Assembly: GCF_010015585.1 (NCBI RefSeq)
Contig: NW_022985092.1
Coordinates: 245,811 to 309,810 of the forward strand
DNA from: Eremomyces bilateralis CBS 781.70
Lineage: Eukaryota > Ascomycota > Dothideomycetes > Eremomycetales > Eremomycetaceae
DNA length: 64,000 nt
Reading direction: 5' to 3'
Positions 4,466-56,492 of this stretch are shown in pieces. The translations under genes were made by a program, and so were the position numbers. The notes under the pieces are model-generated. The model worked only from the letters and a program-made list of their open reading frames with translations. It searched no databases and was not told the origin of the DNA. Position 1 is the first letter of the stretch. The number at the start of each line of letters is the position of its first letter.

Positions 4466-6063
4466 TTACAGAAGAACCATCCCCATACCCACGGCCGCCA
4501 ACGCAACCACCACCCCCCAAACCCACTCTCGACTTGGCGCCATCCTCCCTGCCGCGCCCTCCTCGCCCGCTGCACCCTCACCCACAGCTCCCGCCCCACT
4601 CGTCGGCACCAGCGCACTCCCCGTTCCAGTCGCCGTCACCGTCGCCGTCGCCGAACCCTCGAGGTCCAGCTGCTGCCCGATCGACGGCAGGGAGACGTCG
4701 CCGTCGACGTCCCAGAAATCGGAGATGCGCGTTGGGCACGGCGGGGCGGCGAGGCTGGGGGTGTAGGCGGATTTCTGGACGCCGCTGGGGGTGAGGGTCT
4801 GCCATTGGGACTTGAGGTTGTCGAAGTCGGGTTGGACGGGGGTAGGGGTGCCGGAGCGGGTGAAGCCGTCGGGAGGGGCGTCGGGGAGGGAGGGGTCTAC
4901 TTTTTCGCCGTAGCTGATGAGGCCGTAGTTGTTGGCCTAGAGGGGTTAGTGCGGCTCTATAGGAGGGTTGATTTCGAGGGGATTTACCTCTTGGATCCAT
5001 TCGTACACGATGGAGCCGGACCAGTAAGGGGCCATCTTCGGGCCGAAAATGGCTGCTTGGTCGGCGAAGGTACGGGGACGCACGGTGTTGCAGCCCGTCT
5101 CGGAGAAGTAGATTGGAATCGAGTACTCCGTGACGTTTTTAGTCAACGCAGCATACCCCGACTCTTCGAAAGTCGTTTTGCCGCACCACTGGTTGAACAT
5201 TGTCAGCATCCGATACCGTTTCAACTATGTGCGCATTGCAAACGTACCTCATATGCGTTCAACGCGAAGAAGTCGAGAGACTCGGAATAGTTGGTGCCGC
5301 ATGCCAGATAATTCTGCAACATGGGGCGAAGGGTAGCGATGTCCGCGGCGGAGTAGCCGATGGGAATCTGGCGGTAGTCCTTGCTATCACGGTAGGCCTT
5401 CATGTCTCGAGCTGCGGCTTTGACATACGGGGCAGCAAGAGAGCCATTCTTCATGGTGATGACTTCGTTGCCGACGAAAAAGCCGGCCACGTTTTCGAAC
5501 GTGTGGAACGCATCCATGACATCGCTGAACATGCTATGCTGGGTTTCATTCCACCACGGGTGATTCTAAATACACATTAGATATGTCATCTTGTTGTAGG
5601 TCTGTGCAAGCTTACCTGCTCGATCTGGGTATCGAAGTCATCGAGGTCAATAAAAGCGTAGATGCCTTTCTCAGCAAATGCGCTCATACATCCAGTATGG
5701 TCACCGCTCGGATTCACACTGCGAGTCTCGTTAGAAGGTTACGGAGGCACGAGATCCCCGGCCCTCAGGGGAGCTTACTGGTAGACGCGGATTGCGTTCG
5801 CACCCAGCTCGGACATCAGACTTGCATCGCGTTCGCATTGATCAGTGTCGATGAGGGGATCCTCCGGGACGAGCTGGTAGGCAATTCCTGTTGGCTTTAG
5901 CAACATTCCCATATCAGGGGACAGAGAAAGCTTGGTTACCCTTGATGAACCATTGGTCGCCTTCACTAGTGAAGAACTTTGAACCTTTGACTTCGATGGT
6001 GGGGATAGCAGCAGAAGATGCTGTCAACGCAGCCAACGTCGCGGCCAACAGTGATGAACGCAT
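4466..6063 (-). CDS. GH72 1,3-beta-glucanosyltransferase, GPI-anchored (Gel/Gas type)
   Basis: Six exons, complement(4466..4936, 4988..5188, 5248..5565, 5616..5718, 5719 to 5778 being intron, 5779..5887, 5940..6063); 441 aa. The family lengthens 1,3-beta-glucan chains at the cell surface by transglycosylation. Residues 1-19 (MRSSLLAATLAALTASSAA) are a signal peptide. FFTSEGDQWFIKGIAYQ and ERDASLMSELGANAIRVYH are GH72 hallmarks. The acid/base Glu is in GFFVGNEVI and the nucleophile Glu in YFSETGCN. The tail is small-residue-rich and ends in the hydrophobic run VWGVVVALAAVGMGMVLL, a GPI-attachment signal. No Cys-rich CBM43/X8 module is present, so it resembles the Gel1/Gel2 subgroup rather than Gas1. 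The short exons explain why no single long ORF is visible. Confidence 0.92.
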
Positions 6064-6176
6064 TTTGGTGGGATACCGTCTCTTTCTATTCTTTCTTGAA
6101 AGTAATGACCAACGAGTTTGACCAAATCAAGGGAACCAGAGTTTAAGGCAATTGGGAAACCAAACTGAGTCAATGG

Positions 6177-6230
6177 CTGTTGTCGCGGTCGTTTTCGCGG
6201 TCGTTGTCGCGGTTGTTGTCGTGGTCGTGG
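6177..6230. repeat. Degenerate 12-bp tandem repeat upstream of GH72
   Basis: Imperfect copies of GTCGTTGTCGCG and variants run for about 54 bp, 114 bp or more upstream of the GH72 start. It may fall in the 5' leader or promoter. No function is evident. Confidence 0.6.
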
Positions 6231-8401: not shown

Positions 8402-10272
8402 ATGAATCACCCCGTCCAGGTCGTCAACCTCGTCTCCGACGATGAGCCTACTCCTAAGCGTCCCCGATACAGCGCGCCGGCACTGGGCAAACAGAATATG
8501 AGTTCATACCCCCAGAAAGCTGTGCAATCATCCAAACCAGTGGTTGTGAGCGCGGCAAGACATCATCATATGCCGGGGAACTCAGGCGTCCAAAGCGACA
8601 TGAAACTATCGTGGACCAAGCAGGAGCTCAGGCGGCTCACCGGGGATTCCCCCCGCAAACTGTTCGAGATATGCCAATTGGTCATCTCTCCATGGCGTGT
8701 AAGTTGACTCAACATCTCATCCTCTCCAGTCTCTCTCGCCTCGATCCGAAACTGACCGCAATGCAGTCAGCGCCTTATACTCCACTCCGAATCGACTACC
8801 TTCCCGATGGCGTCCTACATGCGCTTCACCGCTACCTCAGGCATGGAGAGTTGCGCCACTATGACGAAGGGGATAATGGGACATGCAAAGTCACGAAACC
8901 TCCCCAGGGCCCCCCACAAGCACCGTCCGCGCCCGCTGCGGTGGACATGTCGAAAATTTCTAGAGTGGGAATCCAAGAGACGCTCAGACTGGTCCGACTT
9001 GCGCATCCTACGGAGTTAGAGAAGATCATTTCCGAGCTGGCGTTAAAGAGTCCGTCCTTACGACTTGCGCTGCTGAAGTACTTGGATCCCAGGGCACACC
9101 GCGAGGTGGAGGCAGAAATGCAAAAGCGGACGCAACCGACAAACAGCGTCCATCCGCACTGGAAGATGGAGCAGAAAATAAAACCAGAAGTGAGGTCGCC
9201 GTTTGCGGAAACTCCAGCATCTCCGGGGTCACACAGCAAAGTTAAGGACCTGGGTTGTTCTCCAACAGCTCCTGGTCAGGCAGATGTCCCTCCCACACCC
9301 CCCTCGGCTTTCCAAGGACAGCCGTATCCGGACCTTAACACCTGGCGTGGGACCCTCTACTCTTTACCACCTCAGCATGGATCGTCACATCAAGCACCTG
9401 GACCCAGCAATACCGTCCCATCCTCCCTAACAGCCCACCAAAGACCTTCACACCAATCAGTTCGCACGAGCAACGGCTCTATGTCCTCTCTCCCATCCTA
9501 CCAAGGACTTACGTGTCAAGCCCCTGGCCCCATGAATGGACTGGCATATACCATACCGCCGTACAATCCATCCTCGATGCCACTGCAAACCTCCGCCCCT
9601 TCAAATGTTCAGTGGCGACCCACATTGACGAACACAAACTACCCCTTACCGCCGCCAACCCCACAACTCAAAGAAAACGTCAACGGACACACGACGCCAC
9701 ACGCCAACATCCCCGGCTACCATCCATCCTTGAATCAATATAGCTACTCAACAACCCGTTCCGGCCCGAATGGAACCTCTTTAGAATCGAGACAACAGCC
9801 CCAACCGCCACTTCAAACCCCGAAACCAAACTCCTTGTCACCCACTATGGGACCATCCCCCTCAGCACGACCAGCGTGGCTAAAATCACGAGAAGCCCCA
9901 AACCTTGCCACTAACCTCCTCACCAACCCCCAAAGTCCAGCGGACGAAACAACCGGAACCACCAATTCCACCTCGGAAAAGGACCCCAGCATCAACGTCC
10001 CCGTCCTCAACTTCAACGACACCGACACCGCCAGCAGCAGCCCAAGCGCGCCGGCGAATCGAGTACGCAAACGGGTTGTGGAGGGCTCAGAGGACTCAGA
10101 GGATGGGAGTGCGGATGGTGGGAGCGGCGCTGAAGGACAGGAGCAGGTGGCGGGAGAGCCACGACAGAAGAGACTGCGGGTTGGGGAGGGGGATATGATG
10201 TCGAGTTCTTTGAAACCGGATTGGTCGGCGACACGGATGAGTTTGTTTGGGCGATCGGAGTCGGCGGCGTAG
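8402..10272 (+). CDS. Unrecognised Pro/Ser/Gln-rich protein with N-terminal SIM-like motif
   Basis: Two exons, join(8402..8698, 8767..10272), with a 68-nt GTAAGT...GCAG intron in phase 0; 600 aa. I do not recognise the family. The N-terminus MNHPVQVVNLVSDDEPTPKR has a hydrophobic VVNLV followed by SDDE, the pattern of a SUMO-interacting motif, next to a basic PKRPR stretch that could act as a nuclear signal. A likely folded helical part spans about 70-210 and includes LRLVRLAHPTELEKIISELA. The remainder is low-complexity Pro/Ser/Gln, ending in an acidic and then basic tail with KRVVEGSEDSEDGS. A nuclear role is inference. The last 200 bp of coding sequence turn G-rich after a long C-rich run. 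Confidence 0.75.
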
Positions 10273-10506: not shown

Positions 10507-12039
10507 TCATGACTTTCTAAGAGGCATCACCGGCCTACCTCCCACTCCCTTCCCTCCTTGCTTCACCTTCATCTTCACGAGATTAACCACCTTACTCGAC
10601 ACCCCCAACCGATTCCGCAGCACCAACGCGCCGGTCAGCAACGCCAAACTTCCCGCCTGATGACCCGCCGCCAACCACGTCGGCACCAAATACAACAACG
10701 TCGTGATCCCCAGCGTCACCTGCGCCATCACCAGATGCGTCAGCCCATTCAGTCCCCGATGCACGTCCCGCGGCAACATCGCTCTCAACCGTCCGCCCCG
10801 CCGCTTCCCATACACCCACAGTCCAAACACCGCCGCCGTCGTCGTCATCGCCAGGATCCGGTGGTCCAGCTGCACGAGCGACGGGTTCGCCGTCATATTG
10901 CGCCACACTAGATCGGACTGGTCTTCCTGCTGCGAATAATGCGGGTCCCACAGCTCAGGGCTCGGCGGCGTAAGCCCGAGTCCCATGTACGGAAACTCGT
11001 TGTAGATCAACCCGGCGTCGAGGCCGGCGACCAGCGCGCCGGACATGGCGGTCGTGAAGACCAACGCGGCGACGGCGGCGGTCGCGATTCGGAAGTGGCG
11101 GACGACGGGTGAGCGGAGGGTGGCGAGGAGTTTCTGGGAATCCGCGGGGGATTTGAGGAGGCGGTGGGCGCGCAGGATGCGCAGGCCAGAGGTGAGCATG
11201 AGGGCGTAGACAACGAAGGCGAGGCCGAGGTGGACGGTGAGGCGATATTGCGAGACGCGGGGGTAGGAGCCCGGGGCGAAGAGGTCGTCTTTCAGGCCGG
11301 ATTTTACCATCCACCAGCCGACGAAGCCCTGAAGGCCGATGAGGCCGGAGATGGCAGTCAGGCGAAGGGCAGTGCGGGGAGAGATGCGACGGCGGGCGAT
11401 GAAGTACATGGTCGGGAGGAGGAAGGAGACGCCGATAACGCGACCCCAGAGGCGGTGGCCCCATTCCATCCAGTAGATCTTCTTGAACTCCTCGAGGGAC
11501 ATGTTGGGGTTGAGGCGCTGGAACTCAGGGGAGGAGCGGTATTTGTCGTACTCGGAGGTCCATGCCTCCTGGCTCGTGGGTGGCAGGCTGCCGGTGACCG
11601 GACGCCATTCGGTGATACTTAGCCTGAGAAAGTGTTAGTCGATGTCAGGTCGACGGTTGGGGAGGGAAGCATACCCCGATTCCGTCAATCGCGTAAGACC
11701 GCCGAAGACGACGATCCCGAAGACACTGGCAGCGCTGCCTATCAACCAATATGCGACCTTCTTGTCGCTGATTTCGGGGTATTTCCTGCTCGACTCCGAT
11801 GACGATTTCGAGCCTTCGGGGGAGACAGACTTCGAAATCGATGCGGCTTCAGAGATAGAGGCGGCTACAGATGTCCGCCGGGGATAGGAGTGGTTGATAT
11901 TAAGCCGTCGAACGGCATAGTTTAAAGGAGAGGCATGCCGTGCTTCTTTTCGAAGACATGAAGTGCAGGTAAAAGAAGGTTTGATAATGCGCAGGGCGCT
12001 GCTGCGGAACCCCGCGAGCGGACGGACTAGCGACGCCAT
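10507..12039 (-). CDS. COX15: COX15, haem A synthase (mitochondrial inner membrane)
   Basis: Two exons, complement(10507..11623, 11675..12039), with a 51-nt GTATGC...TCAG intron whose splice restores GLTRLTESGLSITEW, a strongly conserved Cox15 segment; 493 aa. The enzyme oxidises the C8 methyl of haem O to formyl, making haem A for cytochrome c oxidase. The first 60-100 residues are Arg/Ser-rich, consistent with a mitochondrial presequence. Haem-ligand candidate His residues sit in WMEWGHRLWGR, VHLGLAFVVYAL, VQLDHRILAM and THLVMAQVTLG. Several hydrophobic helices match the eight-helix CtaA/Cox15 fold. The start is the ATG in MASLVRPLAG; upstream in-frame codons are not ATG. Its 5' end faces the lysyl-tRNA synthetase across 465 bp. 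Confidence 0.95.
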
Positions 12040-12504: not shown

Positions 12505-14532
12505 ATGGCGGGCGAACCGTCCCAAGAAGCCACGCCTGTGGAACAGATGCAAAACCTTCTCCTAGACGAAGTCACCGGGGAGAGGGTCTCCAAGTCGGAA
12601 CGTATGTTCTTCGCGATCCTCATCGATGTGCGTAGCTGATAATGGGTGGAATAGTCAAGAAGAGGCAGAAGAAGCGCACAATTGATGCGAAGAGGGCCGA
12701 GAAGGCAGCGTCCGCTCCCGCTCCCGCGAAGCCGGTCGCGAAGGAAGCTAGTGCGGAGGAGAAGGAGAAGGATCTGACTCCCAATGTACGGTTATTCCTT
12801 CTGTGAGAAACAACAGAGTACTTATGACAGCGCAGCAATATTTCGAGATTCGAAGCAGAGCGATCAAGAAGCTGAAGGATACTCGGAACCCTGACCCGTG
12901 CGTGGAACGAAATTAGCGTTTAACACCATTGCTGATATATCCAGATACCCCCATAAGTTCCAAGTCAGCACTGACCTCCGCGAATTTTTGAAGAAGTACG
13001 ACTCACTCGAGACCGGTCAACTAGTCGAAGATGCCGAAATTCGCATCGGAGCTCGGATATACACCAAGCGCTCATCAGGGACCAAGCTTCTGTTCTACGA
13101 TGTCCGCGCCGAGGGAGCGCGCGTGCAGATCATGTGCCAGAATCAGTACGCCCAGGGCGATGTGTCGTTCGAGAAGCAGCATGAACACCTTCGACGTGGA
13201 GATATCATTGGAATCGTCGGGTTCCCAGGACGGACGAACCCCAAGAACCTGAAGGAGGGCAAGAAGGGGGAGCTGAGTATCTTCGCCAAGGAGATAATCC
13301 TGCTGACCCCTTGCCTTCACCAACTTCCTGGCGAACATTACGGCTTCAAGGACCAGGAGCAGCGGTTCCGACAACGCCACCTCGACCTCATCATGAACGA
13401 CAAGACTCGAGATACGTTCGTCACCCGCTCCAGGTTGATCAGCTACATCCGCCGATACTTCGACGATCGGGACTTCATCGAGGTGGAGACTCCCATGATG
13501 AACATCATTGCCGGCGGCGCCACGGCGAAGCCGTTCAAGACGCACCACAACGATCTGAACATGGATCTGTTCATGCGTGTTGCGCCCGAATTGTATCTGA
13601 AGATGCTGATCGTCGGTGGACTGGAAAGGGTGTACGAAATCGGGCGACAGTTCCGTAACGAGGGAATCGACCTGACGCACAACCCGGAGTTCACGACCTG
13701 CGAATTCTATCAGGCGTACGCGGATGTCTATGATATTATGGAGACGACCGAAGATCTGGTGTCCGGCCTTGTCAAGCACCTTACTGGGGGATATCAAACC
13801 AAGTTCCACACGCAGCATGGCGAGGTCTACGAGGTGAACTGGGCTCGACCATGGCGAAGAGTCGAAATGATCCCGGCTCTCGAGGAAGCCATCGGCGAGA
13901 AGTTCCCTCCAGGCGATCAACTGCACACCCAGGAAACCAACGAATGGATGCGCGGCGTCCTGAAGCGCATGAAAGTCGACTGCTCCCCCCCCCTCACCAA
14001 CGCCCGCATGCTCGACAAGCTCGTCGGCGAATTCATTGAAGAAACCTGCGTCAACCCCACCTTCATCTTCGGCCACCCGCAGATGATGTCCCCTCTCGCG
14101 AAGTACCACCGCACCCAACCCGGCCTTTGCGAGCGCTTCGAGGCCTTCGTCTGCAAGAAGGAGATCATCAATGCGTTCACTGAGCTGAACGACAGCTTTG
14201 ATCAGCGACTGCGCTTCGAGGAGCAGGCGAATCAGAAGGATCAGGGCGACGATGAGGCGCAGTTGATCGATGAGACTTTCTGTCAGTCGCTGGAGTTCGG
14301 ACTGCCGCCGACGGGAGGATGGGGCATGGGGATCGATCGCATGGTGATGTTCTTGACGGATAACTACAGCATCAAGGAGGTGTTAGCGTTCCCGATGTTG
14401 AAGCCGGAGGATCAGGGGGCGAAGTTGGCGGCGGAAATCACCGGCGTGGAGCCTATGCCTGAAGAGGGGATCCGTAAGTGCTTGCCAGACTCTTAACTTT
14501 TCTTTTGCTAACAGCGTCCAGCACACAAATAG
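12505..14532 (+). CDS. KRS1: Cytosolic lysyl-tRNA synthetase (class II)
   Basis: Five exons, join(12505..12601, 12655..12785, 12836..12897, 12945..14473, 14522..14532); 609 aa. It charges tRNA-Lys with lysine. The Lys/Ala-rich N-terminal extension ([18 protein letters not shown]) is the tRNA-binding tail of eukaryotic LysRS. The OB-fold anticodon domain covers about 100-230 ([20 protein letters not shown]). Class II motif 2 is [20 protein letters not shown] and motif 3 is [19 protein letters not shown]. The fourth exon's donor GTAAGT leads to an 11-nt last exon giving the ending GIPHK. The third donor is GTGCGT, less usual but it is the only one that keeps the frame. The lack of a presequence argues for the cytosolic enzyme. 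Confidence 0.95.
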
Positions 14533-15251: not shown

Positions 15252-16251
15252 TCACTTCGTATTGCTTCGATTCCGACATCCGACGCCATCGCGAACCACG
15301 CGAATCTTCCAACTCGCCCCGTCGCCCGCATACACCAGCGTATCCTGCTTTCTCCTAATAAAGCCGCCACGGACTCGGCCGGTCACGGTGACATCCTTCG
15401 GGAGCGGTGCCGTCCGTATCGGCACCAACTCCGACTCCCGGCCCTCGTCGTCCATGCCGAGACCGCTGTCCATTCTCTTTGCGGATGGATGCTGGGACGG
15501 GGTGGGCGGGGTGCTTAGGACCGCTTCGAGGTCATTGGCTTGGGAGATTAGTGCTTTGATGCCGGCGACGGAGGATTCGGCGCGGGAGCGGAGGTGGGCA
15601 GCGCAGGGAGGGCCCCAGTACGGGTCGTTGCTGATGGCGGAGACGAGAGGGGGAAGGAGGGGGGTAAAGTTGGGGAGGGTTGGCTTGTCGGGTTGACTGG
15701 GGGAGGCGGAGAGGAGACATGCGGTTAGGAGTAGGCGGATGGTGGATTCGGTTGAGAAGGAATAGACGGTGATGCAGGCTGTGGAATCACTTGGCTTAGT
15801 GGGGGGTCATTTCAAGTTGCGAGCTTTTCGTACCTGGACAGCTCCACGCCTTCGTTTCCATCCAGTCGAGCTCCTCGTTGACAAATATCCCTAACCAAAC
15901 AAATGCACTCCTCGCGTCACGACTGTACGCAAGCTCCAAGTCATCCGGCAACGGGCGGCGGCCCTTGTTATTCGCGATATATCGCCGTTGCAGGACGTCT
16001 TCCGCATGCCTCTCGGCATGAAGGTATAACTTCGCCAACGGAGCGATCAGAGCATGCAAGATGTCTCGATACAGCAGCCATGTGTGCCGATCCGAACCGC
16101 TTCCGCCGTGCGCAGCGCAGAAAGTACAGTTCAACGTCGCGGAGAGATGTTGACGGAGGATCTGAAAGGTCGCGGAATCGCGCAATTGCTTCTCAAAAGC
16201 CGCCGGAAGCACGAACGGCAAAGCATCATGTTGAGCCGATGCGGTCGCCAT
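15252..16251 (-). CDS. Hypothetical protein, family not recognised
   Basis: Two exons, complement(15252..15778, 15834..16251), with a 55-nt GTACGA...CACAG intron; 314 aa. Start taken at the ATG of MATASAQHDALPF; an in-frame ATG five codons upstream (16266) is possible. The N-terminal half looks helical and folded (RHTWLLYRDILHALIAPLAK; ARSAFVWLGIFVNEELDWME) with a CTFCAAHGG segment. The middle has TVYSFSTESTIRLLLTACLL. The C-terminus has a possible beta-rich part (TVTGRVRGGFIRRKQDTLVY). No signal peptide, no clear membrane span and no catalytic motif that I can name. The clean in-phase splice and composition support a real gene. Confidence 0.7.
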
Positions 16252-17392: not shown

Positions 17393-19099
17393 TCACCCCC
17401 CCGTCGTAATCGCCATCCCAATTTCATGCTCCCGCCCATAACAACAGATCCCCTCCGCCGCCATCCCCACATGCCCAACCAATATCCCCGCCACCCGATC
17501 CCGCGTCTCCCTCGCCGACGGCCGCTCCTCCGGCAACGGCGAGACCATCCTCCGACATAGTCGCAGCAGCGCAGGCACTGCGCGAAACGCGCGGTGTTCC
17601 CGCGTTGCTGCCACCCCCTCCAAGTGATCCATCCAGGTGAGCAGCTTCGGCACGTTCGCGTGGAACGACGCGTCGACGCGGCTGGGCCCCTTGGATTTCG
17701 GGCGGTCGGCGTCGAGTTTGGTGGCGCGGTGTTTGAGGAAGTCGGCGGGGCGTTGCTTGAGGAGGAAGGAGAGGAGGTCGAGGAAGAGGCAGCCGAGGGA
17801 GAAGATGTCGGAGTGGGGGGTGGGGATGGGGGGGTCGACAACGGGTTGGAGAGAGGAGGTGCGGGGGGTGCGGAAGTAGGTGAGGGCGCTGGTGGACTTG
17901 CGGCTAGAGGTGGAGGTGGTGCTGGAGGTGGAGACGGAGGGGCAGCGGTCGGAGGAGCTGGTGCTGGTGTTGGAGGCGCGTTCGAGGCGGAAGGAAGGGG
18001 ATTTGATGGAGGTGAGGGCGGGCTGGGACTGTCTTCGGGTCGCTACTTGAAGCTCAGGGGCACTGTAGGTGTATTCTTCCTCGCGGTTCGCTTTCTTATC
18101 GCGCTGAAAGGTCCTTAGGCAGCCAATATCGCTGAATGCGATCGAGTTCTTGGAGTCGATGACGACGTTGCTCGGGCGGATGGCAGCATGGCAGAGACCA
18201 TTCTGATGCATGACGATGAGAGCGTCCGCCAAGCAGTGCATCCAACCCAGCAGCAATCGATGTCGATCCGGCTTTGCCAGCCTCTGGTATTGCGGCGGAT
18301 TACGGTGTGAGATGAAGGACTGTAGAGTATGCTGACCGCTGAACGTGGTGATCGTGTATCCATCCCCTTGAAAGGTGTAAGACGCATATATTGGCGCGAT
18401 GTGCGGGTGCACGATCGACCTCGAGGTTCGCACATCTGCGATGAACTCTTCCTCCAACGCAGTGGACGACTGTGGCTCCTTCAAGCTCACTTTTCGTCGC
18501 ACGAAAACTTCATGTGGCCGCTTCGGGAAATGCACTCGGTACCAGTCCTGCAATGCCACAGCTGGGGGAAGTCGATGGACATACTCGATGGGAACAAACT
18601 CGTTGTGCGCGTAGTCGATATGCGAGCCTTCTTTGAGCTCCCGCAACAAGAAAGTGAATTGGGTGTTGTAAAAACGCCGGAACAAGGCATGATCAGGTTT
18701 CACCGACATCTTCAATTGGGGTACGGTATCCTCAGGAATCGGCAGGTCATCATCGTCAAACGAATCATCCACGATGGCAAAGATCCGATCCGGAATTCCC
18801 AGGTCCTCCAAGATCATGAACCACCGTCGCGCCTTCTTGAGGATCCAGTCGAGGTAACAGTCGTTCGTCAGGCTGTCGCCGAACGCGAGCGGACGACGCA
18901 GCAGAACGCGTTGGTCTGGTCGCACCCGCGATAGGATCAACTCCGGCGTCACCTTCGAGTCGATCCGTTCGTCGGTCCACCACAGCTGCTGGAGGGGCGC
19001 GTGAGGCGTGACGAGGGAGTGCCCGGCATAACCGAAGATGAAGGCGTTCAGCGCGATGGTGTTGGGCGTGACGACGCTTGATATAGTTCGGGGAACCAT
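17393..19099 (-). CDS. Pseudokinase-like protein (degenerate Ser/Thr kinase fold)
   Basis: Single ORF of 568 aa from ATG 19099. Residues from about 190 on follow a protein-kinase layout: EVFVRRKVSL (beta3 with a Lys), SIVHPHIAPIYASYTF, then LADALIVMHQNGLCHAAIRP in place of the HRDxKP catalytic loop, then IAFSDIGCLRTF in place of DFG. An APE-like YSAPEL follows and the C-lobe Arg is present in PEERPSARE. Loss of the catalytic Asp and of the DFG motif predicts an inactive kinase acting as scaffold or regulator. A Ser/Thr-rich insert (NTSTSSSDRCPSVSTSSTTS) sits in the C-lobe. The true N-terminus may lie upstream at ATG 19209 in another frame (see findings). The stop follows a possible GTGAGT donor, so a small 3' exon is not excluded. 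Confidence 0.7.
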   Translation of the reverse strand: MVPRTISSVVTPNTIALNAFIFGYAGHSLVTPHAPLQQLWWTDERIDSKVTPELILSRVRPDQRVLLRRPLAFGDSLTNDCYLDWILKKARRWFMILEDLGIPDRIFAIVDDSFDDDDLPIPEDTVPQLKMSVKPDHALFRRFYNTQFTFLLRELKEGSHIDYAHNEFVPIEYVHRLPPAVALQDWYRVHFPKRPHEVFVRRKVSLKEPQSSTALEEEFIADVRTSRSIVHPHIAPIYASYTFQGDGYTITTFSGQHTLQSFISHRNPPQYQRLAKPDRHRLLLGWMHCLADALIVMHQNGLCHAAIRPSNVVIDSKNSIAFSDIGCLRTFQRDKKANREEEYTYSAPELQVATRRQSQPALTSIKSPSFRLERASNTSTSSSDRCPSVSTSSTTSTSSRKSTSALTYFRTPRTSSLQPVVDPPIPTPHSDIFSLGCLFLDLLSFLLKQRPADFLKHRATKLDADRPKSKGPSRVDASFHANVPKLLTWMDHLEGVAATREHRAFRAVPALLRLCRRMVSPLPEERPSARETRDRVAGILVGHVGMAAEGICCYGREHEIGMAITTGG

Positions 19100-19937: not shown

Positions 19938-21608
19938 CTACGCCCACATCCCCAACGACCACTTTCCCCTCTCCCCCGCCGCCCCGATCCCAGGCCCAAA
20001 GCTTTTTCTTGTAGGTCCCCCATCGGCGTCCTTGTCCTTCGCGTAGCCCGCCAGCCCTTCCTTGAGGAACCGGTCCCTGTCGACCTCGACGACGCCTTTG
20101 ACGCGCAGGAACGCAAGGAGGCTAGCGCCGCTCCAGGCGCCTTGCGTCTCGACGAGGCGAAGCATCCCTTGGATCGGGGCGGTCGCGGCGCGGCGATTTT
20201 GGATGGATAAGGCGATGGGGTCGGGGTCGGGGGTGCGGTGGGCGGGAGGGATGTATTCTTCTTCTGAAGCAGAGTCGTTGTCTGTCGGAGTTGGTTTCGT
20301 GGCACCCGGGGACGGCGTGGGATTTTTGTTCGTAGTTCTTGGCCGACGAGGTCTCCCTTTGCCATAGTCGCCCACGGGGTCCCATCCACGCGTCTGAATC
20401 AAATATTCCAGCTCTTGCTTGATCCTTCGCTTCAATCCAGGGACGTTTGCGATACCGCCGGTGACAATGATCCGAGACATGCATATCTTGCGCACATCAA
20501 TCGGCAGGGCTAGCAAGGAGCGGAATATTGCTAACTGGATGGATTGTTCGTGGTCATCAAGGTCTTTGGTAGCAGAGCCATGAGCAAACAGTGCCGATTC
20601 TATTGCAGCTGCAATGTCTTGAAAAGGTATTTGAAGGGTGACTGGCGGATCCGTCGTCGTGATTTCAATGTCGCTCCGGGGAAGGTCCGTTTCGTCATTT
20701 GAAAGATTGGCTTTGGAAGCGCTTCGAGCGTCAGCCAGCTGTCGACACCAACCGAGCCGGTATAGGACTTCTTCCGCCTCATTGAGACCCAATGTAGGAC
20801 ACTTCCCCGACTCCGATTGACCGTCCGCGAACCGCTTCGACACCTGCTCGTTCAACAACTTCGCCAACTCCCGCAACACTCTCTTCCCGGCTCGCACGCT
20901 CCGTGAATGTGTAATCTCTCGGTACTCCGCCACCGACGTGATGCGCGTCTCCGCCCAACCCACGTCCACTACCAGACAAGACCGCACCCCTGCCCCGATC
21001 GCCGTCGCGATCGAGGAGGAAATAATACTGATGCTCGGAACTTGGATCGAGCTGAATAGCGTGGACAACACCACCGAGAGGAGCGGCCGGGGGAAGACCG
21101 AAGGGAGAACCACCGTCATCTTCCTCGGAAGCAGGTCCAACATCAAATTCGTCCTCTCAGCCAAGCGTACCGCGCGCTCGATCTTATCCCGCACCAGATC
21201 GAGGTCCAACTCTCTCGTATCCATATCCCACAGCTCATACTCGTTCCCCCACCCCTGCGCCTCCAGTGAAACAGGCCCATCCTCCCGATACCCCGGCAGC
21301 CACGGCCGGAAGTCCCCAACGCGCCGCTCATCTTCGGGGCCGAACGTCATGGCGACCCGATGCGCATGCTCGCCACCGAAGCCGACCCGCAAGTAGCGGC
21401 TTCCGAATTCCAGGACGAGGAAGTTCTCGTCCCGGTGCATGAGCGAGCTGGGGGAGCCGTAGAGGGAGGCGAGAGAGCGGCTGTAGGCGCCGGCGATGGG
21501 GGTGTGGGGAGAGTTGGGGGAGGACAAGGCTGAGGCGGTGATTTGGGAGGGAGAGGGCCGGGCACGCATGGAGGAGGGCTTGCGGAGGGTTTCTGATGAA
21601 GAAGCCAT
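19938..21608 (-). CDS. Divergent actin-related protein (possibly Arp10/Arp11-like)
   Basis: Intronless 556-aa ORF from ATG 21608. Actin-fold landmarks appear in order: phosphate-1 strand LVLEFGSRYLRVGFGGEHAH (about 65-84), MTVVLPSVFPRPLLSVVLS, phosphate-2 SCLVVDVGWAETRITSVAEY, adenosine motif IIVTGGIANVPGLKRRIKQE, and AWSGASLLAFLRVKGVVEVD near the end. Residues 1-50 are a Ser/Pro-rich tail, and an acidic Pro-rich insert (about 430-470, with SASEEEYIPPAHRTPDPDPI) interrupts subdomain 3. It is much more divergent than actin or Arp1-Arp4. The fungal dynactin pointed-end subunit Arp10/Arp11 is my best guess, because that subunit is poorly conserved; a nuclear ARP is the alternative. Confidence 0.75.
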   Translation of the reverse strand: MASSSETLRKPSSMRARPSPSQITASALSSPNSPHTPIAGAYSRSLASLYGSPSSLMHRDENFLVLEFGSRYLRVGFGGEHAHRVAMTFGPEDERRVGDFRPWLPGYREDGPVSLEAQGWGNEYELWDMDTRELDLDLVRDKIERAVRLAERTNLMLDLLPRKMTVVLPSVFPRPLLSVVLSTLFSSIQVPSISIISSSIATAIGAGVRSCLVVDVGWAETRITSVAEYREITHSRSVRAGKRVLRELAKLLNEQVSKRFADGQSESGKCPTLGLNEAEEVLYRLGWCRQLADARSASKANLSNDETDLPRSDIEITTTDPPVTLQIPFQDIAAAIESALFAHGSATKDLDDHEQSIQLAIFRSLLALPIDVRKICMSRIIVTGGIANVPGLKRRIKQELEYLIQTRGWDPVGDYGKGRPRRPRTTNKNPTPSPGATKPTPTDNDSASEEEYIPPAHRTPDPDPIALSIQNRRAATAPIQGMLRLVETQGAWSGASLLAFLRVKGVVEVDRDRFLKEGLAGYAKDKDADGGPTRKSFGPGIGAAGERGKWSLGMWA

Positions 21609-43305: not shown

Positions 43306-45563
43306 TCATATTTCAAAGCGCCCCGTCCTCTCCAAGTCCCGATACACTTCCCCAACCATGCTCCCACCTTAACGTTCAACTGCCGTCGAATCATGCTAGG
43401 AACATTAGCAACCCATCCCCTCCTACACAACCAGAGACCACTTACCAGCGCCCGCAGTCGTCGCGGCATCCGCACTGCTCTCCGCCGCTTCCGCTTCTTC
43501 CAAGCCACTAAGATTGATCCCCACCGCCTTCGCCCACACCGGGTCGATATTCTCCTCCTTGAAATAATACGAGACGTCGGAGCCGGGCACCGTGTCGAGC
43601 AGGGAGTAACCCATGCCCAGGAACGCCCAGGGGTTCTTGTTGTAGTATTTGATCTCGAAGTCCTCGTAGCGGGGCTTCGAGATGGTCTCAACTACTGGGG
43701 GTTAGCAAGGAGGTTAGAGGAGGGTGGGGCGGACGAACTGTAGTGCAGGGAGGAGCCAGGCCAGATGGCGTTGACGCGGCCAGTGTCGTTGTTCTTGTAC
43801 CAGGAGCGGCAGGAGTCTTTCCAGACGGTGTGTTTGATCCATTCCTGGGCACGTCAGTCGATCAGTGGCGCGGAGGCCAATGGGGGGTGCGCACCTGTGC
43901 GTGCTCATTGAAGAGGTCGCTCATCTCTTGCTTTGGGACCCAGCTCTTGATGTTCTCGTTCTGCATCTTGTGGATGACGTCAACAGTGTAGTTCACCACG
44001 TACTGGAGCGGGCCTGCCACACTGCCGTTCTCGACGGGCCATGCTGCTCGGTGGTTAGCGGACGCTCAGTGAGGAAGGATAGTGACTGACTGGGTCCGAT
44101 GAACATCACCATGTTCGGCATGTCGGAGACCGCGAGCCCCAGGTAGGATTCGGGGACCTTGGCCCACTTGTCGTTCAGAGAGACGCCATTTCGGCCGATG
44201 ATGGGGAATCGTGGACGATAGGTTACGTCGAAACCGGTGGCGCAGATTATCGTGTCGCACTTCCGCTCTTCTCCATCGGCACCGACCACGCCCTCTTCGG
44301 TGATTCTCTCCACGGCCGTGAAGTGGACATCGATGTTCTTCTCCTGGATTGCGAGCATGTAGGGATCGCCGGGGGTGACTCTGCGGCCTGCCACGGAGAC
44401 TGATCAGCTCTGGGATGGTTCCTCGTCCCGGGTTGACTTACATCCGACTTGGAACTTTGGTGTATATCCTTGCAGCAACCTTTCGTCCTTGATGAACTCC
44501 TTCATCCTCTCCCTGAAGAGCGCTTGCCCCAGTTTCTGTCCTTCCGACTCGTGGTAGAAAGTTCCCCACATGCCGTTGATTTGATTCTCAATGTCTTTCG
44601 AGTGGGCGACCATGTTTTTCGGGTTGCTTCGGAAATTATCCTGCTCCTCTTTGGTGTATATCTTGTTTTGGCTGTGGCTGTCTGCGAATTGAACGAACCA
44701 GACACCTAGGACGATTTAGCAACTCCGTCCTGGTCTATGGGGGGGCAGTACGGACCAGTGCGAACAAAGATATCCATATGATTGACGTGCGGCTGCATAT
44801 TTGGGACGGTCTGTATTGACGATGCCCCTGAGCCGATGACCGCAACCCTGTCGTTCTTCCACTCCTCTTCTTGATAATCCTTGGGCCACCGTGCGGTATG
44901 CACAACCCGACCTTTGAACGACTTGAGACCAGGTAGATCCGGCCATTTGAAATCGTTGAGAATCCCTGATGCGTACAGGAATAGATCGCATGTCTCCTCG
45001 AACTCTCGGACTGATCCGTCTGGTGCGGACTGACGCAAAGATATCTTCCATTTGCCTTCATCCTCCAACCACTCTGCGCGTGTCACTAAAGTATTAAAGG
45101 TCATGTATTTTCGAAGGCCAAACGCCTCGCAGACTTTGTCTAGGTACGCCCAGATGTCAGCGGAGCGACTGAAGAATCTGGGCCAGTCAGGGTAGAGCGC
45201 CCAGTTATACGTGTATGCTGCCGATGGGACGTCGCACGCGGCACCAGGATAACGATTCTCCAGCCATGTTCCTGGTCACCGTAAGTATGTGTGGCTACTA
45301 CGACTTTCGTCATCCATGGGGTGTCAATGGGATGCGTTACCTCCAATGTCATGGTTTTTGTCGTATATGACCAGGTCCACATTCTCACAGAACTTTTGAA
45401 TACTCCGCGCCATCATGATGCTGGAGAACCCAGCGCCGATAGTGAGAACCTTCAACTTGCGGTTCTTCGGGTCATTCAACACGATATTCGGAATATCATA
45501 CCCACCTGCACCGGGCGTGGAATAGTCCACCTTCCCGTCGATGAGGTTGAGATTTGGAGCCAT
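43306..45563 (-). CDS. Baeyer-Villiger-type FAD monooxygenase
   Basis: Eight exons, complement(43306..43367, 43446..43694, 43739..43844, 43895..44043, 44091..44387, 44442..44705, 44756..45271, 45341..45563); 621 aa. It inserts oxygen into a ketone with FAD and NADPH. FAD-binding Rossmann motif [17 protein letters not shown] is at about 40. The Baeyer-Villiger fingerprint [14 protein letters not shown] is present, followed by the NADPH motif [27 protein letters not shown] and [14 protein letters not shown] are further family landmarks. The last exon gives [19 protein letters not shown], a better family ending than the read-through alternative WSLVV. Relatives work in secondary metabolism (for example StcW-type). 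An O-methyltransferase lies 1.2 kb upstream on the same strand. Confidence 0.92.
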
Positions 45564-46772: not shown

Positions 46773-47522
46773 TCAGCCCCTAACAACCGCCAGCAAGAAC
46801 CCATCATACCCCTTCTCCCCCACCGTTTGCAACACCACCGCGTCCACCCGACTGTCCTTCCCCGCCAATTCCACCACCTTTCGACTCCCCCGAATCCGCT
46901 CATCCTGCTTCCCCAGCTCCTCGTCCGCCAAATTCCCTCGCCGCACCACGTTATCCACCACGATCGTACCCCCGGGCACCGACAACTGCACCGCCACATC
47001 AAAATACTCCCAGTTATTCTGCTTGTCCGCATCGATGAACACGAACCCAAACGGCTCCCGCTTCCCCGCCTTCACCTCCTCCAACAGCCGCGGGAGCACC
47101 TCGACCCCCGCGCCCACCTCCACGCTGACCCGGTCGCTCACGCCCGCGCGCTCGAGGTTCTCCCGCGCGATCTTCGCATGGTGCGCGTCGAACTCAACCG
47201 TCACGACATTGGTGTCGGCCTTGTTGGCACCGGCACCGGCGCTGTGGCTCAGCCAGATGGTGCTGAAGGCGCCGAGGGTGCCGACTTCGAGGATGTTCGT
47301 CGCGCGCGCGGCGCGGGCGAGCAGCATGAGGAATTTGCCTTGCGAGGCGGTGACGGCGATGTCGGGGAGGCCGCTGGCCTGCGCGTGCGCGTGAGCGGCG
47401 TCTAGGGTGGATTTGGTGGGCGCGAAGGGAGGGGCGGAGGTGTCGAGGCTCTTTTCGGTGTATTTGTCGACGGCGATCCACGCGGGAGCAGGAACACCGA
47501 CTGAAGAGTTAGTGGTCGACAT
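46773..47522 (-). CDS. SAM-dependent O-methyltransferase, family 3 (caffeoyl-CoA/catechol type)
   Basis: Intronless, 249 aa, ATG at 47522. SAM-binding motif I is NILEVGTLGAFSTIWL. The acidic residue binding the ribose is in VVTVEFDAHHAKIARENL. The metal/substrate strand is FVFIDADKQNNWEYFD, and GGTIVVDNVVRRGNLAD carries the DN pair typical of cation-dependent O-methyltransferases. Length and motif spacing match the family. Substrate unknown; small catechols or acyl phenolics are typical. Confidence 0.9.
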   Translation of the reverse strand: MSTTNSSVGVPAPAWIAVDKYTEKSLDTSAPPFAPTKSTLDAAHAHAQASGLPDIAVTASQGKFLMLLARAARATNILEVGTLGAFSTIWLSHSAGAGANKADTNVVTVEFDAHHAKIARENLERAGVSDRVSVEVGAGVEVLPRLLEEVKAGKREPFGFVFIDADKQNNWEYFDVAVQLSVPGGTIVVDNVVRRGNLADEELGKQDERIRGSRKVVELAGKDSRVDAVVLQTVGEKGYDGFLLAVVRG

Positions 47523-48765: not shown

Positions 48766-49794
48766 ATGGCGGCTCCCCCCAGGATACACTTCGTCCGTCA
48801 CGGACAGGCGTTTCATAACCTCTCTGCAGACTTATACCACCTCCCCGATCCCTTACTGACTCCCCTTGGGAAACGCCAATGCGAAGAACTCCGCAATACC
48901 TTCCCCCACCACGCCTCGATATCAATCATCATCTCCTCCCCCCTAACGCGGTGCCTCCAAACCTCCGTGCTCGCCTTCCCCGCCACGATATCCCGTCCAG
49001 GCACCCCACGACAGTCATCCTCGCGCTCGCCCTCCTCCAACACCTCCTACGCAAACTCCCCAACCAGCTCCCGCCACGAAAAATCCCGCGACCGACCCCC
49101 CCACCCCGACCTTACCTCCCCGACCGCGCCCGCCTCCGAAGTCCACCCCCGTCCGATCGTCGCGCAACCCCTCCTCCAAGAAACCTCCCATCTCCCCTGC
49201 GACACCGGCACCGCCTTTCCCCTCCTCCTTGGCGGCCTCCCGAACCTCCTCGGCATCTCCGCCGCGCGCGTCGACCTCTCGCACCTCACCGACCACGAGT
49301 GGCTGGACAAGCGGGCGAACGGCCCGCACGGGACGTCGGGGAAGTCGCTGGAAGCGCGGGCGAAGAGTGCGCGGCAGTGGTTGCGGATGCTAAGGAATAA
49401 GGGGCACACGGACGTGGCGGTGGTGTGTCATGCGGGGTTTCTGGGATGGTTGACGGGGACGCGGAGGGCGAGTTGGGCCGTGCAGAAGGGGAAAGATCAG
49501 TGGGAGAACTGCGAGTGGCGGACGTATGAGTTTGTGAGCGGGGATGATAAGGATGCGGTGTTGGTGGAGGCGGCGGAAAGTCGGGTGAGGAGGGGGGTGT
49601 GTTCGGAGGAGGAGGCAGCGCATGAGGAGACGGAGAAGAGTGCGGCGAGGAAGAGCTGGAAGGACTTGTTAAAGCCGAAGAAGGGGGAGAGGGATGAGGA
49701 TGGTGGAGAGGGATATGGGGGGGAGATGGAGAGCCTGAATAAGGCACAGCACACTACGCTGATGAAGAATCGAGACTGGGTAGGCGGGTATTGA
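48766..49794 (+). CDS. Histidine phosphatase (phosphoglycerate-mutase-like) protein
   Basis: 342 aa from the ATG of MAAPPRIHFVRHGQAFHNLS; the upstream frame is open only from a TTG. The catalytic RHG motif lies in IHFVRHGQAFHN at about 9. The second catalytic His is in VVCHAGFLGWLTG, and SSPLTRCLQT supplies the conserved Arg. A Ser/Pro-rich insert of about 50 residues (SRPGTPRQSSSRSPSSNTSY onward) splits the usual fold after the first helix pair. The C-terminus is highly charged and probably disordered. Similar fungal proteins are annotated as phosphoglycerate mutase family without known substrates, so a glycolytic role is unlikely. Confidence 0.88.
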   Translation: MAAPPRIHFVRHGQAFHNLSADLYHLPDPLLTPLGKRQCEELRNTFPHHASISIIISSPLTRCLQTSVLAFPATISRPGTPRQSSSRSPSSNTSYANSPTSSRHEKSRDRPPHPDLTSPTAPASEVHPRPIVAQPLLQETSHLPCDTGTAFPLLLGGLPNLLGISAARVDLSHLTDHEWLDKRANGPHGTSGKSLEARAKSARQWLRMLRNKGHTDVAVVCHAGFLGWLTGTRRASWAVQKGKDQWENCEWRTYEFVSGDDKDAVLVEAAESRVRRGVCSEEEAAHEETEKSAARKSWKDLLKPKKGERDEDGGEGYGGEMESLNKAQHTTLMKNRDWVGGY

Positions 49795-50297
49795 TATCGC
49801 ATGGAGGTTATGGCGAGTCTTTGGAGGATTTTTCCACTCATATGTGGACATGTCACGGATCCGACTTAATCAGGGTTTCGACTTTCACTTCCAGCTTGGG
49901 GATGGCATGGAAGGTCTAAAGTACCGTATACCTCCAGGGGCGTAAGTAACCCCACATTGCTCCTATTAACTCCTAATTTAACGACATTGATCAAGTTCTG
50001 AATGGCACTATTCCAGATAACACTTAAGTATGCATGCATCGGGTCTAGATACCATCTCCCGACTTCATGACCACATCATCCATCGAATATCGCGCTACAC
50101 CGCTGTATATCCCCCCGCCCGTACATGTCTATCCGCCTGCGAAACTTATCCCACGCCCAACCACCCCTCTCCCTCGTCCTCATCCCACAATTCAGCGAAT
50201 CCTACTCTACTCAACACCATAAAACCTCAACATCGAACTTCAATCCATTGCTAGCCACGCAGCCTAGCTCTCCCCACATCAAGCATCCCTCATTCCC
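49795..50297. other. Convergent intergenic region
   Basis: About 500 bp of 3' sequence. No feature recognised. Confidence 0.4.
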
Positions 50298-50414
50298 TCA
50301 CAGAATGGTGCAGGGAATAATACAGCAGCTGCAGCTGTCGCCGCATTCGAGGCATTTGGTGTCGGCGGGTTTGGGTTTGAGGACGGAGGGGACCGAGGTG
50401 GTGGAGGCGGGCAT
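50298..50414 (-). CDS. Small Cys-rich protein, 38 aa
   Basis: An ATG at 50414 opens a 38-codon ORF with six Cys in its last 18 residues (positions 21, 24, 28, 30, 31, 35): TKCLECGDSCSCCIIPC. The N-terminal half is Thr/Ser/Pro/Lys (SVLKPKPAD). It is too short for usual gene finders. A well-formed intron (50465..50529) just upstream fits a 5'-UTR intron and supports transcription in this direction. No signal peptide. Spacing is not that of CuMT-type metallothioneins (CxC repeats throughout) or of CYSTM. Metal binding, or membrane association through Cys acylation, is speculative. Confidence 0.5.
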   Translation of the reverse strand: MPASTTSVPSVLKPKPADTKCLECGDSCSCCIIPCTIL

Positions 50415-50464
50415 TGTGGCGGTTCACAATGCGATTGTTCTGAGGTAGACGTGCGATGGAGCTC

Positions 50465-53268: not shown

Positions 53269-54991
53269 ATGACTGCCCAACACGATCCGACTCTGCCCGA
53301 CGAGGAACACGCGCCGCTTCTCTGCGAGGGGGATCGGGTTCAAAACCATGGCGCCATTCTGGATGCATATGGATCTGGGGAGGTCGACAATGCCGAAGAA
53401 GGTGGTCTCGCATCCCCTGACTTGAAAGAGCCGAGTACTTTGAAATTGATCGTGATCATGGGCAGCATATGGGTTGGCGTTTTCCTTGGTGCTCTCGGTA
53501 GAACTCTCTGCCCAATCCTTTTAATATCCGAACTTCGCTAATATAGTTCTAGATGCCACGGTCATTGCGACTCTCAGCGCCCCTATTTCCACTTCGTTCC
53601 ATTCCTTCACCCTCGTATCCTGGCTCGCATCCTCGTATCTCATCTCCAATGCGGCCCTCCAGCCCCTTTCCGGCCGCCTCACCGACATCTTCGGCCGTCG
53701 GTCCGGCCTAATCTTCTCCAACGTCTTCTTCGGGGCCGGGAATCTGATCTGCGGTCTTGCCAGCTCTGAAGCCGCCATGATCTTTGGCCGCGTCATCGCC
53801 GGAATGGGAGGCGGAGGCCTGTTTGCCATCAGCACGTTCGTCGCTTCGGACTTGATTCCGCTTCGCCAGCGCGGCCTCTGGCAAGGCTTTGGGAATGTGT
53901 GCTATGGCCTTGGCGCGGGTCTCGGAGGCGTGTTCGGTGGGTGGATTAACGATCGCTGGGGATGGCGGTGGGCGTTTCTTATCCAAGTGCCTTGTGTTGC
54001 AGTCTCGGGCGTCCTGGTCGCTTTTACGGTCAATATCCCGGTGAAGGAGAATAATCTCTCTAGAATTCGCCGCGTCGATTTTCTTGGGGCGATGACGCTG
54101 GTCGTGTCGTTGACCCTTCTCCTTCTCGGTCTCAACTCGGGTGGCAACATCGTGCCCTGGACCCATCCCCTGGTTTTGACCGCGTTGCCACTCTCTTTGG
54201 TGTTCCTCGTGGCATTTATATTTGTGGAGGACCGAGTCCCCGAACCTATCATACCTACACGTCTTCTAACGCGTCGAGCGGTCTGGGCTCCATGTGTTGT
54301 CAATTGGCTTCAGACGATGGCTGTCTTCGCGGTTGTGTTCTACATTCCAATCTACTTTCAAATCCGCGGCCTCAGTGCGACTCAATCAGGAGCAAGGATG
54401 ATTCCCCAGGCGCTTGGCGCTGCTATTGGATCCCTGGGCTCTGGATTGATCATGCGAGCGACAGGACGCTACTACTACTTGAACCTCGTTACTCAAGCCT
54501 TATTTTTGGCCGGTTTTGCACTTATCGCGATAACCTTCGACCAGGACACCCCCGATGCCCCCCCCTATATCTACATCCTTATGGTCGGAATTGGATATGG
54601 AGGGATGCTGACCATCACACTTCTTGCACTGATCAGTGCGGAGGATCATAAGCATCACTCGGTCATTACTTCCGCGTCGTATGCATTCAGAAGCACTGGC
54701 TCGACTCTCGGAATCGCGATCGCCAGCGGCGTTTTCCAAAACCTGCTGAAGTCGGGCCTCTGGAAGAGATTCGGTGATCGAGAGAATGCGGGAGAGATCA
54801 TAGGGCGGGTGCGAGATTCCATTGATGAAATTCGTCATCTGCCTCCTGGATGGCAGAAAGGCGTACTAGAGGTTTACATGGCGAGTTTCAAAGGTGTTTG
54901 GTGGACCATGTTCGGTCTTGCAGTTTTGAGTGCACTCTGCAGTCTCCTCATGAAAGAGCACGTTTTGCATAATACCCTAGCGAGGGATTAA
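53269..54991 (+). CDS. MFS transporter, DHA2-like (14-TM drug/amino-acid type)
   Basis: Two exons, join(53269..53497, 53553..54991), with a 55-nt GTAGAA...TTCTAG intron; 555 aa. The splice restores LDATVIATLSAPISTSF, the loop at the start of TM1 typical of DHA2 exporters. Motif A is GRLTDIFGRRSGLIFS, and GVFGGWINDRWGWRWAF is the TM5 antiporter motif C region. About 14 hydrophobic segments can be counted. The 60-residue N-terminal cytosolic region is acidic with an EEHAPLL dileucine-like motif, which in fungal relatives often goes with vacuolar targeting (Vba-type). Substrate unknown. Confidence 0.9.
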
Positions 54992-55093
54992 TATCACTCG
55001 GGGCTGCATCTCCAGGCACATAAAACCAACGTTGGGCCTAGATATAGGATTAGAGCGATCTATACTATATCGACTTTTAGCCAATTCGCGAGC

Positions 55094-56492
55094 TTAGTCA
55101 AGCTTCACCACGCTGCCTGTAACATCGTTGGTCGTGCTAGGCGGCAACTTCCCTGCTCCAGCGATCAACAAATACCGCGGATCCTGCTGGAACACCAACA
55201 ACGACCTCGTGTAAGACTTGCCCTCCGGCGTGGCCACTTTCTCCCATGCGTCCTCGGCCCCCAGCGCTTTGTTGATGAAGATCTCCGTCCTCGTTCCGCA
55301 CGACACAACGATCGTACCATGCTTGCCGCCGACCGGCGTCCACACGACGTACGGCGAGCCATCCGGCACGGTCCCGTCCTTGGAGACGATGGGATGGTGG
55401 GGCGCGTCGTTGAACTTCTCGGGGTTCTTGGAGAGGCGGTAGAAGACGGGGAAGCTGTAGTTCGGTTCGGTGGGGTTGGGGCCGCCTCCATACTCGTATA
55501 CGTAGATGTATTGACCTGATATAGTGAGCGGAGTGAGAGGAACACTTCCTTAGGGACTTACCGTTGGGCAGATACGCGACGGTCGGCATTCCTGGGCGGT
55601 CGGTATAGGTTGGGTACGCGACATCAGTAACAGGAGGACCCCAGTTGATCAAGTCCGACGACGTCTGATGGGAAAGCTTCTGACCATACGTGGCGTTATC
55701 GCGCTGGTCCGCATAATAATAAATGAGCTTCTTCTGGTATGTCATCAAGAATGGCTCCCCTGTCAACGATCAGCTTCGAACTTTCGAGATTGCAACGATT
55801 CGGAATGAAATCTCGGCAATATGGCTCTTGTCACTTACACACTGGAGTTTCTCCCTGTCATCCGGCTGTCAGTCCTCGTGGATGCTAGAAGGGGTCTAAG
55901 TCCACTTACATTGTTCGGAATCGCCACTCCTCCCTTCGCTACATGAGACACAAACTCCCACGTCCGCCCCCAATCTTTGGATGCGTACAACTCAAGCTAT
56001 CCAGCATGTTAGCTACTAATAACCCATCCTTAGGGATAATCTTACCTGCGTTGACGACAGATCCATCGGAATCGCCGACCCAGCAAGCAGCAGCGTCCCC
56101 TTCTTAAACCCCCCAATCGTCTCCGGAAGCAGATACAAAAACGGCTGATATCGCAGCCCAACCCCCAGCTCCGTGTCCTGCACGCGGGCGATCTCCGCCC
56201 ACGTCTCGCCGCTGTCGGCCGATCGGTAGATGGGGAAGTGCACTAACGGCGGCTCGGGGCTGTAGTTCTCCCAGGTGGCGAGAAGGTCGTTGTTCGGGAG
56301 CTGGACGGTCCGCGCGTACAGGACGTGCGGGTCGGTGTAGTTGCGCGGCGGGCTGTGGATCACGACGCTGGAGAGCTCGTGGGGTCGGGTTTGGGGTCGC
56401 GGAGGGGATTGGGCGTCCACGGGGGTTGAGACAGCCGTGGAGATGATGGCGGCGGCGGCGACGAGCCACGCTTTGATGGGGAGGGACAACAT
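55094..56492 (-). CDS. Secreted BNR/sialidase-fold glycoside hydrolase, GH93-like
   Basis: Five exons, complement(55094..55515, 55562..55759, 55839..55854, 55910..55996, 56046..56492); 389 aa. Residues 1-27 are a signal peptide. An Asp-box-like repeat (YRSADSGETWAEIARV) and YASKDWGRTWEFVSHV mark the six-bladed propeller. The 16-nt micro-exon completes GETPVWEPFLMTYQKKLIYY, a conserved strand in fungal exo-arabinanase-type GH93 proteins, so that exon is well supported. NATYGQKLSHQTSSDLINWG and GPNPTEPNYSFPVFYRLSKN are further family-like blocks. Probable substrate is arabinan; other sialidase-fold families cannot be excluded. It converges with the MFS gene 100 bp away. Confidence 0.85.

Follow-up and report, generated by a model that had tools for sequence, protein, structure and literature searches.

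A C-rich to G-rich switch of the coding strand near gene 3' ends in Eremomyces bilateralis

Why does the coding strand of so many genes in one stretch of fungal DNA turn from C-rich to G-rich shortly before the stop codon? The stretch (the window) comprises 64,000 nucleotides of the Eremomyces bilateralis CBS 781.70 genome (26.6 Mb, 62 contigs) and corresponds to positions 245811-309810 of contig NW_022985092.1 (C26:245811-309810), its right edge being the end of the contig (309810). A reading of the window made from its letters alone, hereinafter the sequence-only reading, had marked such a switch by eye in 14 genes and had offered codon choice, transcription-linked mutation bias and mRNA folding as possible causes. 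Opposite GC skews at the 5' and 3' ends of fungal genes were described by McLean & Tirosh in 2011 (PMC3315797, main text), and the pattern reported here is, we infer, the same gene-end skew.

Genes were predicted with our own hidden-Markov gene finder, without RNA data, in the window and in three added regions (C1:100001-300000, with 8,423 N; C6:100001-150000; C26:225811-245810). From a first set of 105 models in the window, C1 and C6, 80 were kept (score >20, a single stop, free of N, 450 bp or longer); the extended set contains 86 kept models. A Pfam scan of one exon per model, on the predicted strand, covered 80 of these 86 and placed 55 in a family above cut-off. Predicted introns are short and follow the pattern GTAAGT...CTAAC...AG. 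One gene, an NGP1-type GTPase running from L012:8255-10000 into L013 (C1:178255-180391), was split into two models by the gene finder, which calls for caution with 3'-end counts. It was removed from the analyses of switch width, 5'/3' anatomy, neighbour effects at four-fold degenerate sites, long genes and the expression proxy, and from the test modelled on McLean & Tirosh; its halves are still inside the stop-aligned, shuffle, four-fold, intron and flip counts. The totals of 80 and 85 include a transposase model. The Pfam-supported set of 53 is the 55 models minus a transposase and one half of the split gene.

Skew profile at gene 3' ends

Aligned on the stop codon, the 80 genes have a two-part profile of coding-strand GC skew, (G-C)/(G+C). 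Skew lies between -0.08 and 0 at 840-1800 bp upstream of the stop, is -0.12 to -0.18 at 360-780 bp (the C-arm) and changes sign about 300 bp from the stop. The final two bins of 60 bp (the core of the G-arm) carry +0.31 and +0.35, with the maximum of +0.35 at 60-120 bp. Third-position skew spans -0.28 to +0.41. The GC content of third positions (GC3) reaches its maximum, 0.77, in the 300-360 bp bin adjoining the crossing, and is 0.60-0.65 beyond 1.3 kb. The G-arm continues about 100 bp beyond the stop, the successive 60-bp bins of the 3' flank having skews of +0.18, +0.06, 0.00 and -0.10; the 60 bp adjoining the coding sequence (CDS) on the 5' side have a skew of -0.22. AT skew is +0.02 to +0.14 in every stop-aligned CDS bin when all positions are taken, and mostly negative at third positions alone.

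The sign of both arms is the same in three genome regions, with skews of +0.25, +0.25 and +0.32 at 0-240 bp and of -0.16, -0.12 and -0.06 at 420-780 bp. Among the 47 genes with a CDS of at least 1400 bp, the C-arm differs from the gene interior in 32 (p=1.8e-4) and the G-arm in 35 (p=2e-5); the increase in GC3 is 0.09 (36 of the 47, p=2.6e-7). The 22 genes whose CDS reaches 2000 bp or more have a weaker pattern, with +0.23 over the last 120 bp and -0.27 at 600-800 bp. G-arm skew is lower in genes with a longer CDS (rho -0.22, p=0.049), switch amplitude declines with intron number (rho -0.26, p=0.02) and switch distance declines with length (rho -0.30, p=0.03, 56 genes); these correlations use the 80 genes or those with an arm or switch measured.

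The profile is neither flat nor reproduced by synonymous shuffles of the same proteins, which keep 0.161±0.011 of the 0.349 in the 60-120 bp bin and -0.044±0.011 of the -0.151 in the 480-540 bp bin. The recurrent switch proposed by the sequence-only reading is therefore borne out. Gene by gene, in a two-arm test with 200 shuffles each (minimum p 0.005), 50 of the 80 genes have p<=0.01 by synonymous shuffle and 30 fail; codon-order shuffles give 51. The window contributes 15 of its 19 clean-model genes by either shuffle, and the synonymous shuffle is passed at this level by 26/45 genes of C1 and 9/16 of C6. A test modelled on that of McLean & Tirosh is significant in 58 of 85 genes.

The switch had been described as taking place within a few tens of bases. 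This is so for a minority: a two-arm model fits 37 of 84 genes, and its best logistic width is <=20 bp in 8 of them and 40 bp in 6, with the remaining 23 at 80-160 bp.

The 334 kb analysed contain 74 strong C-to-G flips; each of five shuffles gave 1-2. Of the 74, 32 are no more than 650 bp from a 3' end and 18 are near a 5' end, with 2 in mid-gene and 22 outside models, which corresponds to 6.2 per 10 kb near 3' ends, 3.5 near 5' ends and 0.34 in mid-gene. Flips in the other direction, from G to C, total 58 (0-3 per shuffle).

At a replication origin, a C-to-G flip in skew reads alike on either strand. Because a C-rich segment followed by a G-rich one is its own reverse complement, the switch follows gene direction on both strands automatically, and the argument from strand polarity against replication skew falls; only the location at 3' ends is informative. 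Replication origins were rejected on other grounds, namely the 74 strong flips in 334 kb, their arms of a few hundred bp and their position mostly near gene ends. Genes called on the wrong strand, or overlapping antisense genes, were also rejected: long antisense open reading frames (ORFs) exist, but 55 of the 80 scanned models have their Pfam family on the predicted strand, to which the scan was confined.

Origin of the two arms

The base composition of four-fold degenerate sites defines the changes in the two arms. Specifically, the frequencies of A, C, G and T are 0.19, 0.32, 0.27 and 0.21 beyond 1.5 kb from the stop, 0.12, 0.52, 0.25 and 0.12 at 480-600 bp, and 0.14, 0.21, 0.52 and 0.13 at 60-120 bp. 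A and T are lost about equally in both arms, and C is gained in one and G in the other. In two-fold codons the C-ending share goes from 0.73 in the C-arm to 0.51 in the G-arm, and the G-ending share from 0.60 to 0.81. Codon positions 1+2 shift too.

Introns move with their exons. The skew of 126 predicted introns tracks that of the 240 bp of surrounding spliced exon with a slope of 0.58±0.14 (p=9e-5; introns <=30 coding bases from either CDS end left out), and the same regression on 42-bp exon pieces gives a slope of 0.99 (1,379 pieces). Since introns, codon positions 1+2 and about 100 bp of 3' flank all move, codon choice alone is insufficient. On balance, and as far as predicted introns can be relied on, the process appears to act on DNA or on the transcript as it is made, and not solely on codons or mature mRNA.

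The reading that we place first, with somewhat less than even confidence, is a strand-asymmetric substitution process tied to gene ends and linked to transcription. The last ~300 bp of the gene and ~100 bp of 3' flank shift to G at the cost of C, A and T, the preceding ~400 bp shift to C at the cost of A and T, and the two zones meet at the GC-rich crossing ~300 bp before the stop. Most likely, the asymmetry of mutation or repair would change as RNA polymerase II leaves elongation for termination, for instance at sites of pausing with an exposed non-template strand. A more specific version, which we regard as rather improbable, is that in each gene a bias of repair or conversion spreads from a zone lying ~300 bp ahead of the stop, with A/T changed to C on its upstream side and to G on its downstream side. 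The resulting GC peak, with its mirror-image skew, would be the genome-wide footprint of recurrent lesions formed as transcription prepares to terminate. Of the causes offered by the sequence-only reading, transcription-linked mutation bias is thus compatible with the data and is the candidate that we favour.

Several observations weigh against transcription-linked substitution. A and T stay about equal at the four-fold sites of both arms, so simple C-to-T (cytosine) deamination does not fit. Switch amplitude has no link to a codon-bias proxy of expression (rho 0.06, p=0.69, 40 genes), beside a weak tie to GC3 of the gene body (rho 0.33, p=0.04). Introns split by distance from the stop have no G shift (16 within 250 bp, skew -0.17); several of these 16 models look doubtful or sit in unskewed genes, and the split was replaced by the regression on flanking exon skew. 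Skewed bins are not higher in intron GC, and the most extreme of them contain just 7 and 6 introns. Finally, the 5' end has the same polarity relative to the spacer as the 3' end, and transcription direction alone is therefore not the rule.

Selection on the nascent transcript is a possible alternative, at roughly half the weight that we give to transcription-linked substitution. A G-rich 3' end, with its C-rich template, would favour R-loops or pausing and so efficient termination, especially near a convergent neighbour, and the C-rich zone would form its boundary. Ginno reportedly tied GC skew, in 2013, to R-loops and termination at human gene 3' ends; the likeness to that human pattern is the positive coding-strand skew at 3' ends. 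Consistent with this alternative, GGG runs occur at 25/kb in the last 300 bp of the CDS, compared with 11/kb both at 400-800 bp and past 1 kb (raw counts, composition included). The G-arm (last 240 bp) is also stronger in convergent than in tandem genes, with skews of 0.50 against 0.19 at four-fold sites (34 and 29 genes, p=0.009) and of 0.38 against 0.21 over all bases (30 and 29 genes, p=0.02). This excess is suggestive only: significance is lost when only the last 120 bp are taken (p=0.17), when the Pfam-supported subset is used (p=0.10) and when spacer lengths are matched at 150-1000 bp (p=0.20, 20 and 10 genes), and the C-arm is alike whatever the orientation of the neighbour.

Another explanation is a boundary rule in which every intergenic spacer makes the strand that leads away from it C-rich, regardless of the direction of transcription, for example through bidirectional initiation at both gene ends. 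At four-fold sites of 57 genes with a CDS of at least 1200 bp, skew is mirror-like, -0.31±0.05 in the first 120 bp and +0.37±0.08 in the last 120 bp. On the plus strand, G-rich DNA precedes the spacer and C-rich DNA follows it in 16/18 convergent and 11/16 divergent cases, and 26 of the 58 G-to-C flips fall within 300 bp outside genes. Tandem spacers follow the rule in just 14/28 cases (one tandem spacer is false, being inside the split gene), and the second wave is strong only at the 3' end, where four-fold skew between 360 and 800 bp from the stop is -0.23 to -0.38; its 5' counterpart is +0.06±0.07. We consider the boundary rule improbable.

Equally improbable, in our view, is strand-asymmetric GC-biased repair or gene conversion at recurrent break sites near the crossing, with A/T replaced by C on one side and by G on the other. 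The GC3 peak adjoins the zero crossing in the unselected stop-aligned average and coincides with the switch in genes that were picked for having one and aligned on it, and the near-equal loss of A and T is as expected. Unraised intron GC argues against it, and GC-biased conversion is reported as extremely weak or absent in Zymoseptoria in the available part of PMC5844332.

Selection on codons or protein tails, by a ramp at the end of translation or a preference for certain C-terminal amino acids, is very unlikely as the source of the pattern. About half of the G-arm skew survives synonymous shuffling, so amino acids contribute; specifically, Gly, Glu, Trp, Met and Val go up and Pro, Cys, Ile and Asn go down in the last 240 bp. 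The position-dependent synonymous codon choice suggested by the sequence-only reading is real at four-fold sites, but it falls short of an explanation, because introns and the 3' flank shift as well. Selection for pairing between the arms in mRNA is hardly credible: the arms are compositionally complementary and 58% of pairs in predicted folds join them, but arm-to-arm folding has no extra stability (mean z 0.16 against arm-wise synonymous shuffles and -0.04 against arm-mixing shuffles, in 36 of the 37 two-arm genes, one being excluded for a short arm).

Switch positions in the window

The 14 points marked by eye were compared with all C-to-G jumps of the window, computed with 150-bp arms. Thirteen lie in the top 5%. 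The fourteenth, in COX15 (11030), is at the 9.9% level, and the best position within ±60 bp is 11090, at the edge of the search. As the points were picked by eye in the same sequence, this is a check and not an independent test. Of the 14 genes, 13 have p=0.005 in the two-arm test; the monooxygenase was left out of it. Paired skews below are those before and after the switch.

On the plus strand, the Pro-rich protein (named by the sequence-only reading; 9700..10272) has its G-arm from ~10050, with -0.38/+0.52 at 10065 and a best width of 10 bp. The class II (Lys) tRNA synthetase (13800..14496; Pfam tRNA-synt_2) switches at ~14126-14181, and its modelled tiny last exon past 14496 is doubtful. 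The Ser/Pro-rich protein (26400..27086), one of the two strongest coding cases, is C-rich to ~26815 and then G-rich (-0.69/+0.25 at 26825; sequence read directly). RasGAP (33200..34244; Pfam RasGAP) has a broad switch within 33580-33836, the C2H2 zinc-finger gene (42000..42890; Pfam zf-C2H2), which had been called a homeobox gene, switches at ~42401, and the histidine-phosphatase-like gene (48900..49794; Pfam His_Phos_1; sequence read) at ~49297.

On the minus strand, the 3' end of the gene first named GH72 (4466..5100) has its G-arm at 4466-~4680 and its C-arm beyond, with -0.40/+0.39 at 4690; its last exon has no Pfam match. The COX15 3' end (10507..11400; Pfam COX15-CtaA) switches gradually within 10890-11090, with a width of 160 bp. 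A gene for an unknown protein (15252..15800) switches at ~15480 with a gradual fit, the protein kinase-like gene (17393..18000; Pfam Pkinase) at ~17635-17690, the actin-related protein gene (19938..20450; Pfam Actin) at ~20097-20135 and the O-methyltransferase gene (46773..47522; Pfam Methyltransf_3) at ~47206-47244. The gene named as a monooxygenase (43391..43900) switches at ~43570, with -0.27/+0.34 at 43600; an extra stop in its model kept it out of the shuffle test, and it was left out of the Pfam scan too. The 3' end of the gene named GH93-like (55094..55700) switches at ~55381, and its scanned exon has no Pfam match.

Other strong flips do not mark the 3' end of a clear gene. One of the sharpest in the window (-0.66/+0.47 at ~50305, within 50100..50448, plus strand) is at the ATG of a 47-codon ORF (50305-50448), which lies inside an in-frame 107-codon ORF from 50125. 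The model scores 1 and the reality of the gene is uncertain; it may be a small gene with its C-arm in the 5' untranslated region, or the C-arm would be coding if the 107-codon ORF is used. A flip at ~3961-3964 (3750..4150, no strand assigned) coincides with a weak gene model only (score 7). Strong C-to-G flips also occur at the 5' ends of the actin-related protein gene (21405) and the GH93-like gene (56213).

Fot/pogo and CACTA transposases and a gene of the MFS family had been said not to show the switch clearly. This agrees with the DDE_1 transposase (35943-37854, p=0.76) and the MFS gene (p=0.24). Model 55-2606, which may be a transposon meant by that statement, passes weakly (-0.20/+0.35, p=0.005); its scanned exon has no Pfam match. 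Model 60356-63943 is without the switch as well (synonymous p=0.22). Within 50000-64000, the switch is weaker or absent in the four clean models of the last 14 kb, whose genes may be young or acquired. The last 3 kb of C26 contain no telomere repeat array (one TTAGGG). Two neighbouring models were seen at L026:1950-4928 (HET, NB-ARC and many TPR) and L026:5496-8000 (VWA and alpha-kinase).

Relation to fungal gene-end skew

The main text of PMC3315797 covers species that include filamentous fungi such as Aspergillus and Neurospora, and gives 33% of genes as significant in C. albicans, 14% in S. cerevisiae and 7.5% in S. pombe. The 58 of 85 genes significant here compare with the 33% of C. albicans, with the reservation that gene sets and length limits differ. 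Seven features that it describes were compared, and all are found in E. bilateralis: C-bias at the 5' end, G-bias at the 3' end, reach into the flanks (there, promoter and 3' untranslated region), involvement of four-fold sites and of amino acids, a flat positive AT skew in the CDS, and an intermediate mid-gene skew (-0.08 to 0 beyond 840 bp). Unlike the pattern described there, interiors near zero, a discrete C-arm and a GC3 peak near the crossing are features of this genome. What goes beyond that main text is the C-arm as a localised zone, the peak of GC3, the test on introns, the rule for spacers and the change-points and switch widths of single genes, and perhaps also the excess at convergent genes. 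The average phenomenon is thus already published; here it takes a strong, two-part form at high frequency. A GC-compositional bias at transcription start sites of plants and fungi is reported in PMC555766; C-excess near gene starts is common to both, and PMC555766, in the part available, concerns start sites.

McLean & Tirosh proposed transcription-coupled mutation or selection as the cause and, in the main text, left the choice between them open. A later paper that answers the question, or that treats gene-end skew in fungal nuclear genes, is not among the matches listed, some of which concern mitochondrial genomes. In E. bilateralis, most tested genes have the switch and some have a visible change-point, so that hypotheses of mutation, R-loops and recombination become testable gene by gene, with per-gene switch coordinates in place of an average. 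Within ~800 bp of the gene end, the skew may also influence codon-bias indices, the output of gene finders and the calling of antisense ORFs.

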